DNA from: Acidobacteriota bacterium | GTDB taxonomy: Bacteria; Acidobacteriota; UBA6911 | NCBI GenBank assembly: GCA_016929335.1 | Contig: JAFGIY010000064.1 | Location: forward strand, 1 to 64,000 | Direction of reading: 5' to 3' | DNA: 64,000 nt | Shown: positions 20,329 through 60,780 of the stretch, piece by piece | How positions within the stretch are numbered: the stretch's first letter is position 1 | Layout of the letters: every line of letters starts with the position of its first letter | The notes under the pieces: model-generated | What the model was told of the DNA's origin: nothing | What the model saw: the letters and a program-made list of their open reading frames with translations, nothing else | The model's database searches: none | Made by a program: the position numbers and the translations under genes

Positions 20329-20545
20329 ACCCGTTGATGCGGCAAATGGAAGAGGTTATTTTTCGGGGTCGGAGTCGCTATCTGCATCGGGGTCGAATAG
20401 AAATAATAGTTGAGAATGCAATTGACATACTCCATGGCCAAAAGCCGACCCCGGTGCCGATTCCGACGCCGACCCCGAGATATCAAATCCTTGCCCCGCT
20501 ATGCGCTCATTGTGGGGCACTCTTGATGCTGTGGGCGTCTTTGCC
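20329..20545 (-). repeat. GGGGTC palindromic dispersed element, copy A1
   Basis: cggggtcggagtcg...aaaagccgaccccggtgccgattccgacgccgaccccgagatat; reverse orientation relative to A2 and A3. Confidence 0.85.
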
Positions 20546-38977: not shown

Positions 38978-39129
38978 ATGTGGATCCCCCAATGCAGCGC
39001 CTTGGACGAGCCCGGCTATCGGGTCAGGGGGGGCTTATACGGAGGTTTCCCACAGATAATTCTTCATGAAAGGTTTGCCCCTCACAGCGCTCGCTGTGGG
39101 ACGCACTTGACACTGTGGGTGTCCTTTCT

Positions 39130-39242
39130 CATGTGGGTCGCGGCTTCAGACGCGACGCGCGATTAATCTTATGTGTGAGAAATTCTTATGCCTGCCCTTC
39201 TGTTTTCATATACTTGTCGCGTCTGAAGCCGCGACCCACATG
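39130..39242. repeat. 27-bp perfect inverted repeat with 59-bp spacer
   Basis: CATGTGGGTCGCGGCTTCAGACGCGAC (39130-39156) and its exact reverse complement (39216-39242). Confidence 0.95.
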
Positions 39243-39337
39243 AATTTTTTGTTTTGGATTGCGTCATCCCTGACGCAGTTTTTAAGCTTGTTGCAGAGTG
39301 TGGAGACAGTCTCAAAAGCTCGCACGCATAAAAGAGA

Positions 39338-39560
39338 ACCCCCCACAGTGTCAAGTGTGTCCCGCAGTGAGCGCACAGCGGGGCAGCTTTTTTTATCTCG
39401 GGGTCGGGGTCGGGGTCGGAGTCGGTATCGGGGTCGGCTTTAAGTCATGGAGCTTATCCGTTGCGTTCGCACTTAATATCATTTCCGATTCGACCCCGAC
39501 CCCGAAACAAACCGCTTCCATTCGTCTCATATAACTCCATGTCAACGGCACGCCGGAACA
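39338..39560 (+). repeat. GGGGTC palindromic dispersed element, copy A2
   Basis: tctcGGGGTCGGGGTCGGGGTCGGAGTCGGTATCGGGGTCGG...TTCGACCCCGACCCCGAAAC...CCATGTCAACGGCAC. Confidence 0.88.
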
Positions 39561-39692
39561 GCTTAACCTGTCAGGGTCGCACGGCCCGAGGCCGTGGGTT
39601 TAGAGGTACCAAAGGGGCTGCATCTGGCTTTTTGGAGATCCATGCTCCGGCCCGCACCGGAGAACTTGAGCCGCTTTACTCCCATGAGACAT

Positions 39693-40250
39693 TCAGGATT
39701 TTGCGTTGATAAAGCCCAGGGCAAGGGTTGCCAGCGCCTCGTCCCTATACTTGAACCAGATTTCAAACAAATCTTCGGGAAGAGGTTCGGTCCAATAATG
39801 AATTCTCTTGATCTTCAGTTCGTGTTTTGCATCCATTCCCAGATGATAATGAGCGCTTGCCTGAAGCGGAATCCATTCTTTCCTGGATATTTTATCTCTG
39901 AAGCGGATCTCAAACTGGACGACAACAGCCATCTGCTTCACATCAATCACATAGCACCGCGGTATTATGTCTTCGTGCAGTCCGGGGTGGACAAAGGACA
40001 GCAGCAGCGAGTCACGGGACATCGTTTTCACATGAGGCGTACCTGGAGCCGTATACATGGTCAGTTCAAGGTCCGTGGCGAAATACTTTTTGAGGTTTGA
40101 TACTGTTTCAATCGCTCCCTGGCTTCTTCGAACCTCCTCAAAATAGCCTTCAAACCATTTCAGAATGCTTTCATAGGTAAGTTCCATCGGCGACTTCTCC
40201 CAATTATTTCTCCGTAGACTCTGATCGAAAGAGACCCCATCCGTCAACAA
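39693..40250 (-). CDS. Hypothetical protein (NTF2/SnoaL-like fold suspected)
   Basis: 185-aa ORF; likely start MELTYESILKWFEGYFEEVRR. Confidence 0.55.
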   Translation of the reverse strand: MLTDGVSFDQSLRRNNWEKSPMELTYESILKWFEGYFEEVRRSQGAIETVSNLKKYFATDLELTMYTAPGTPHVKTMSRDSLLLSFVHPGLHEDIIPRCYVIDVKQMAVVVQFEIRFRDKISRKEWIPLQASAHYHLGMDAKHELKIKRIHYWTEPLPEDLFEIWFKYRDEALATLALGFINAKS

Positions 40251-47664: not shown

Positions 47665-47860
47665 TCGCACAGAGGAGCAGATTTTGATATCTCGAGGTCG
47701 GGGTCGGGGTCGGAATCGGTATCGGGGTCGGCTTTTGCTCGTGCAGCATATCTATCGCGCTCACACCTAATATCATTTCCAAATCGACCCCGATTCCGAC
47801 CCCGAGATAAATTCTTCCGGTCGTCTCGTATCGTTCCATGTCAACGGCACTGCAGAACAA
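47665..47860 (+). repeat. GGGGTC palindromic dispersed element, copy A3
   Basis: atctcgaGGTCGGGGTCGGGGTCGGAATCGGTATCGGGGTCGG...ATCGACCCCGATTCCGACCCCGAG...CCATGTCAACGGCAC. Confidence 0.88.
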
Positions 47861-47939
47861 ATCAGACTGTCAGGATTGCGCGGCCATAGGCGGCAGGTTT
47901 GCGTGCCCACTTTGTTTGTTGCCGTCTCCGGCATTTTTG

Positions 47940-52278: not shown

Positions 52279-52358
52279 CCTCCGGCTCTGTCCTCGCTTT
52301 AGGACAGAGTTGACACTTCAGTCTTGCCTGTAGGGTAACAGCGAGGGCTCTGCCGGAG
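52279..52358. repeat. CCTCCGGC palindromic dispersed repeat, copy B3
   Basis: CCTCCGGCTCTGTCCTCGCT...AGCGAGGGCTCTGCCGGAG. Confidence 0.85.
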
Positions 52359-57097: not shown

Positions 57098-57258
57098 AGA
57101 TCCCAAGGCTCTGAGGATCTGAGCAAAGATCCCAATGTTTCCTTTCTTTAGGAATGCAGTGCCAGCCGCTTTGAGTGGTTCACCTACAAGCCTTCGGCTT
57201 TGCCCTCGCTGTGGCCCAAAGTGTCAACTGTGTCCTACAGCGAGGGCTTTGCCGGAGG
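57098..57258. repeat. Dispersed repeats F2 and B5
   Basis: GAGATCCCAAGGCTCTGAGGATCTGAGCAAAGATCCCAATG (F2); CCTTCGGCTTTGCCCTCGCTGT...ACAGCGAGGGCTTTGCCGGAGG at 57191-57258 (B5). Confidence 0.8.
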
Positions 57259-60670: not shown

Positions 60671-60780
60671 CATGCGGGTCGCGGCTGAAGACGCGACCCA
60701 CATGGGAATTCTTGTCTGTATGGATTGTGCTTCATTGCGGCTGCAGTTTTTAGCCTGTTGTCGAGTCTTGAAACAGCCTT
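60671..60780. repeat. Second copy of the GGGTCGCG dispersed repeat (collapsed arms)
   Basis: CATGCGGGTCGCGGCTGAAGACGCGACCCACATG followed by sequence resembling 39243-39315. Confidence 0.75.

Follow-up and report, generated by a model that had tools for sequence, protein, structure and literature searches.

The intergenic region at positions 39050-39620 of the window (the 64,000-nucleotide stretch of DNA analysed here, which belongs to contig C104 of genome G000) raises the question of how several different inverted repeats came to lie within one another. Its neighbours are an M23 peptidase gene, whose last position is 38977, and, on the minus strand, an ORF of 185 aa (39693-40250); the several hundred base pairs in between contain no convincing gene, in agreement with an initial annotation that had considered this DNA apparently non-coding. 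The same annotation had described a nested island of an outer unit, a perfect inverted repeat, a second, inverted outer unit and a so-called A2 element, resembling repeats inserted into repeats. All of these components are present, at slightly shifted coordinates (Table 1). Here, we argue that the island is, with high probability, a stack of three layers, in which a REPIN-like pair lies in a MITE-like element that lies in turn in a hairpin-ended outer element; the layers, their footprint and the direction of nesting are additions to the initial annotation.

Genome G000 is a fragmented assembly of 6.51 Mb in 258 contigs with an estimated contamination of 6.3%. Module statistics refer to 1.66 Mb of this genome (the window together with 1.59 Mb of contigs), called the sample below, and are complemented by genome-wide pattern counts. 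Folding of the island is far outside chance: as single-stranded DNA, positions 39070-39395 are predicted to form a single long hairpin (-96.6 kcal/mol, z = -12.1), and the inner inverted repeat folded alone reaches z = -9.6. Relatives of the M23 peptidase gene, about 44% identical, occur in the genus, but none of its neighbour genes in the window was matched in the flanks retrieved with them, so that no island-free site could be aligned.

Table 1. Coordinates of the island's layers and their parts, in window positions.
Feature	Positions	Strand	Description
Left half of T-U end hairpin	39077-39089	+	GCCCCTCACAGCG, versus consensus GCCCCGCACAGCGGGGC of uninterrupted copies
Left 9-bp target duplication copy	39081-39089	+	CTCACAGCG; 8/9 identical to 39372-39380
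Middle layer, MITE-like, 282 bp	39090-39371	.	TIR matches at both ends; near-complete paralog
Left TIR (in first outer unit of the initial annotation)	39090-39119	+	CTCGCTGTGGGACGCACTTGACACTGTGGG
Left REP	39129-39156	+	CATGTGG tag and GTCGCG..CGCGAC palindrome
REPIN spacer, 59 nt	39157-39215	+	29 sample copies, nearly all beside a REP
Right REP	39216-39243	-	Perfect inverse of left REP
Flank module G within middle layer	39244-39341	+	18 sample copies; palindromes GCGTCATCCCTGACGC and GAGACAGTCTC
Right TIR (in second outer unit of the initial annotation)	39342-39371	-	Inverted match to left TIR
Right 9-bp target duplication copy	39372-39380	+	CGCACAGCG
Outer layer, right part of T-U (hairpin half to right end)	39372-39612	+	86% identity to T-U consensus
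TCGGGG hairpin in mid T-U (A2 of the initial annotation)	39398-39505	+	TCGGGG-rich hairpin

The island is made of modules from three dispersed families. Genome-wide, matches to the REP GTGGGTCGCGGCTNNAGCCGCGAC with up to three mismatches number 187 on the forward and 186 on the reverse strand, and those to the outer unit 17 and 15; neither pattern gives a match when read backwards. Because a palindromic REP can match both strands, there are fewer REP sites than these 373 matches; within the sample, 106 REP matches merge into 68 sites. Profile searches of the sample returned 72 copies of the REP, 29 of the spacer, 25 of the outer unit (A), 18 of G, 37 of T and 20 of U, with zero copies of the six modules in the reversed sample sequence, and the TCGGGG element was scored at about 40 places. 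Every module except the inner spacer was found alone elsewhere, and the components thus do occur separately, a point on which the initial annotation had staked its reading. Further partial copies lie in the window itself, at 20387-20535 (T with A), 47666-47900 (T-U), 57215-57247 (A alone) and 60674-60779 (REP with G).

The outer layer is formed by T and U, which together constitute a single old dispersed element of about 270 bp with a conserved hairpin at each end. Its left end reads GATCGACCACGGCTAGAAGCCGTGGCTT..GCCTGCCCCGCACAGCGGGGC and its right end ACGCCGGAACGGCTTAGCCTGTCAGGGTCGCACGGCC..GGCCGTGGGTTTAG..GTACTAA (GTACCAA in the window), and between these conserved ends the middle varies, resulting in total lengths of 210-640 bp. 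Copies in G000 have a sharp right boundary. In the window, most of the left end is lost or decayed, and the right part survives together with a left remnant; A2 is positions 39386-39612 of this layer, comprising the TCGGGG-rich hairpin and a tail of about 100 bp. Sixty relatives were searched with the T-U consensus, and seven genomes, spread over three genera of the family, contained the element. Across genera (L257-L283), the T-U family keeps its ends while its internal cargo changes completely, and it is without terminal inverted repeats.

The middle layer interrupts this element. The outer units, which the annotation had noted at 39083 and 39343, are found as 44-nt sequences at 39076-39119 and 39342-39385 and are indeed mutually inverted (84% complementary), yet they are not two separate repeats, being both ends of one element with TIRs of about 30 bp. 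This element is flanked by a 9-bp target duplication, and it is short, non-coding and present in many copies, which makes it a MITE. A near-complete paralog (G000:C137:22448-22728) has the same TIR-REPIN-G-TIR content and a 9/9 duplication. TIR searches gave 39 matches in G000, 66 in its sister G001 and none in 14 other relatives. Among 20 complete G001 elements of 155-373 bp, the flanks are 93% identical at exactly 9 bp, versus 10-44% at other lengths (n=4-12), and 11 element pairs, mostly from G000, show 73% flank agreement over 9 bp; weaker duplications in G000 include L224 (4/9) and L185 (1/9 in register). In G001, the element carries other palindromic cargo.

The site of insertion is as distinctive as the duplication. 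The window element sits at the apex of the T-U end hairpin CCCCGCACAGCGGGG, of which insert-free copies exist, with uninterrupted T-U elements in both G000 and its relatives. Two G001 loci (L272 and L286) contain extra DNA inside this same hairpin, starting with CTGACTGCGGAACACACTTGACACTG and ending in its inverse, with CGCACAGCG nearly unchanged on both sides. Together, the TIRs, the 9-bp target duplication and the uninterrupted host hairpins bear out the idea of repeats inserted into repeats as far as the middle layer within the outer one is concerned. When the flanks were joined and one duplicate was removed, 5.75 of 8 positions paired around the centre of the duplication, versus 1.4-3.4 when the centre was displaced and 2.0 for random positions; most of the palindromic targets behind this figure are copies of one T-U hairpin and hence not independent. 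Duplications also lie at the centres of unrelated palindromes, namely the G001 targets CCCCCATCTTGGGGG, GCCCAGCCATGCCGGGC, CGCCTATGGCG and CCCGGCCTTTTAAGGCCGGG and, in G000, a CTCCGGCTCTGCCGGAG-type repeat (e.g. at 52293-52345 of the window). Weaker targets are L065 (3/8, not clearly palindromic) and L200 and L210 (both 5/8). More generally, the middle element shows a preference for the centres of GC-rich palindromes. A more speculative reading, which we consider rather doubtful, is that it inserts by DNA shape at the tips of extruded hairpins or cruciforms regardless of their sequence, in which case palindromes of this lineage would serve as mutual landing platforms for ever deeper nests; part of the targeting could stem from a sequence preference, CC-N9-GG, so that shape recognition is no more than a possibility.

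The inner layer is a pair of REPs. The annotated perfect inverted repeat is present, at a length of 28 nt rather than 27 and with a 59-nt spacer. REPINs are inverted REP doublets at a preferred spacing that form hairpins and occur in many intergenic copies (Bertels and Rainey 2011, PMC3116915), and the pair in the window has these same properties: REP pairs at short distance in the sample are nearly all inverted with spacers of predominantly 47-59 nt, the sequence forms a hairpin, and it is extragenic and high in copy number; ORFs of 150 aa or longer, which cover 82% of the sample, contain 2 of the 72 REPs. REP doublets are 96.9% and singlets 94.5% identical to the consensus (permutation p 0.044). 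REPs are associated with RAYT transposases (Nunvar et al. 2010, PMC2817692), and a cognate RAYT flanked by this REP was not found in the fragmented G000 assembly, which is why we call the inner layer REPIN-like. The REPINs of G000 may accordingly be orphaned, or else their RAYT gene may lie in a part of the genome that was not assembled. The genome does contain one RAYT-like gene under the cut-off of NF047646 (REP-associated tyrosine transposase) and unflanked by this REP, plus a Y1 fragment; the 227-aa Y1 gene was rejected as the cognate RAYT for these two reasons, its lack of REP flanks and its score under the cut-off.

Among 246 other genomes of the phylum to which the window belongs, none has an exact copy of the REP. 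In bacterial genomes the exact pattern occurs at no fewer than 67 loci; among the matches listed, all but one are labelled Acidobacteriota, Terriglobia or Acidiferrales. In two Acidobacteriota (L101:6446-7041 and L254:1332-1927), inverted exact REPs 572 nt apart flank a 158-aa gene that passes NF047646 (109 and 114 bits, cut-off 80). The sharing of the REP with Acidobacteriota RAYT loci and its absence from the other sampled genomes of the window's phylum hint at a transfer between distant lineages, and this common sequence makes both the passage of REPINs between lineages and their persistence without a transposase testable. An element that ends in TGGAGTTTATACATTT lies directly beside REPs or interrupts them (at L031:1300-1830 on G000:C73, and also in L003, L018 and L354), and its L031 copy holds a fragment of an IS200-like Y1 transposase.

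How might the layers have been assembled? The island can be read as a stack of small mobile elements whose distribution narrows inward: the outer layer is family-wide (T-U in seven genomes and three genera), the middle one is found in two sister species of the genus (TIR) and the inner one in a single species (REP). The REPIN is also found without the middle layer, and the sister species has the middle layer without the REPIN, having no REP match. This inward narrowing and the different cargo in G001 agree with an order in which the outer element came first and the REPIN last. A target duplication is not expected for REPIN-type elements. We infer the nesting of the REPIN in the MITE and its late arrival from these sequence distributions, whereas the middle-in-outer part of the nesting proposed in the initial annotation is shown by the sequence itself.

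In the proposed sequence of events, an old hairpin-ended T-U family would have settled in intergenic DNA, after which a MITE-like element with TIRs of about 30 bp would have entered the apex of a T-U hairpin by staggered cutting, thereby duplicating 9 bp. The MITE was probably mobilized in trans by an IS4-family (IS10/IS50-like) DDE transposase, a proposal made because its ends fit the CT and IS50 signatures and its duplication measures 9 bp. It may have carried the REPIN already or received it later, the REPIN itself presumably being moved in trans by a RAYT, a Y1 HUH single-strand transposase that would recognize the inverted REPs. Transposases for the two inner layers were not found in G000, and no transposase-like ORF was noted beside the unpaired TIRs examined, where ORFs were read by eye and contig breaks could hide one.

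The island could instead be one BIME-like mosaic, put together a single time and since multiplied in one piece, so that the parts seen elsewhere would be fragments of it; we consider this improbable. Order and polarity of the modules are indeed nearly fixed in the sample: A adjoins the REP facing outward in 14 of 16 cases, G neighbours the REP with the same polarity in 10 of 12, and T is followed by U in 18 of 18. At six loci, exactly 9 nt separate the TIR from the REP, and the C137 paralog has the same content; loaded elements therefore also spread as blocks, and not all copies are separate events. As the sole explanation, however, a single composite BIME unit is rejected on account of the 9-bp duplications at several unrelated palindromes, which indicate that the TIR element moves by itself. 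T-U moreover occurs in genera without TIR or REP and REPINs occur alone elsewhere, and the interior of the element lies in either orientation relative to its T-U host (in the window versus C137, and among G001 loci). The latter points to several insertions, even though inversion of the segment between the TIRs could give the same result.

Selection of the island as a functional hairpin (a terminator, an mRNA stabilizer or a nucleoid or supercoiling site) would fit its strong predicted hairpins and intergenic location, and such roles have been assigned to REPs of other bacteria (PMC3733652). We nevertheless judge it very unlikely, as convergent gene pairs are not favoured (8 of 72 placed clusters versus 86 of 547 gaps), copies are fragmented, inner layers differ between the sister species, and purifying selection that removes gene-disrupting insertions would be expected to produce an intergenic bias in any case. 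The missing enrichment at convergent genes led us to reject a terminator role in particular, and no known structured RNA family was found in the island, mir-766 being a chance match (18.8 bits against a cut-off of 110). No layer appears to benefit the host cell. An assembly chimera at repeats, finally, would be conceivable in that several contigs end within the U repeat, where the assembly evidently breaks, but its probability is negligible given that the same nesting recurs at many G000 loci and separately in G001, and that ordinary genes lie on both sides of the island. We thus retain the three-layer stack.

Neither palindrome-targeting ISs nor REPINs are new in principle. Insertion sequences that target palindromes or REPs include ISRm22 (IS4), IS1397, ISKpn1 and ISPsy8 (IS3), and IS621, ISPpu9, ISPpu10 and ISPa11 (IS110) (Tobes and Pareja 2006, PMC1525189); the sites hit by Tn5 are frequently palindromic as well, and ISRm22 and Tn5 share an IS4-type preference for palindromic targets (PMC1525189). 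Like these, the middle element inserts repeatedly at one point of a repeated palindrome. Unlike these, it is a gene-less MITE of 50-373 bp that hits several unrelated palindromes, centres its 9-bp duplication on their axis and carries palindromic repeats as cargo. Its 5'-CT ends and 9-bp duplication match the IS10 and IS50 subgroups of IS4, which have 5'-CT ends and direct repeats of 8-9 bp (PMC2266710, Table 1). The TIR variant CTGACTGTTACCCACACTTG fits the IS50 end signature CW------Y---CA-A--W- (PMC2266710), as does the GGGAC variant at all but one position; the relation is thus drawn from the ends and the duplication length, a YREK DDE transposase not having been found.

As in REPIN/RAYT systems, the inner layer is an inverted, hairpin-forming REP doublet with hundreds of intergenic copies whose identical REP flanks Acidobacteriota RAYTs; it differs from them in the REP-flanked RAYT not found in G000 and in the many REPINs that lie inside a DDE-type MITE. 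The island also resembles BIMEs in that a single intergenic mosaic combines REPs of alternating orientation with further short recurrent motifs, except that this mosaic resolves into separate mobile elements with target duplications, a feature not implied by the BIME concept. It thereby shows a route by which BIME-type composite repeats can originate, namely by insertion at palindrome centres. The novelty lies in a MITE that sits at palindrome centres, itself carries palindromic cargo and takes part in stacks of three or more layers, as seen in two sister species; neither the REP nor the TIR sequence was found in print in the literature searched.

Related nests were observed at other loci. At 52293-52345 of the window, a 53-bp miniature of the TIR element lies in a palindromic repeat (CTCCGGCTCTGYC/GGCTCTGCCGGAG) with an 8/9 duplication. 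In G001 (L318-L334), TIR elements of 338-341 bp and 373 bp hold nested hairpin pairs GGCCCGAAGGGCC and AACGCCGAAGGCGTT, which occur a single time in shorter copies, as though a hairpin-pair element had been gained or lost. A deeper nest, with a REP in a TIR element in a palindromic repeat, is found at L354:92-426 (G000:C120:9491 onward), beside another element with the hairpins GTCCCGTTAGGGAC and CCCGGCGCTTCAGCGCCGGG.
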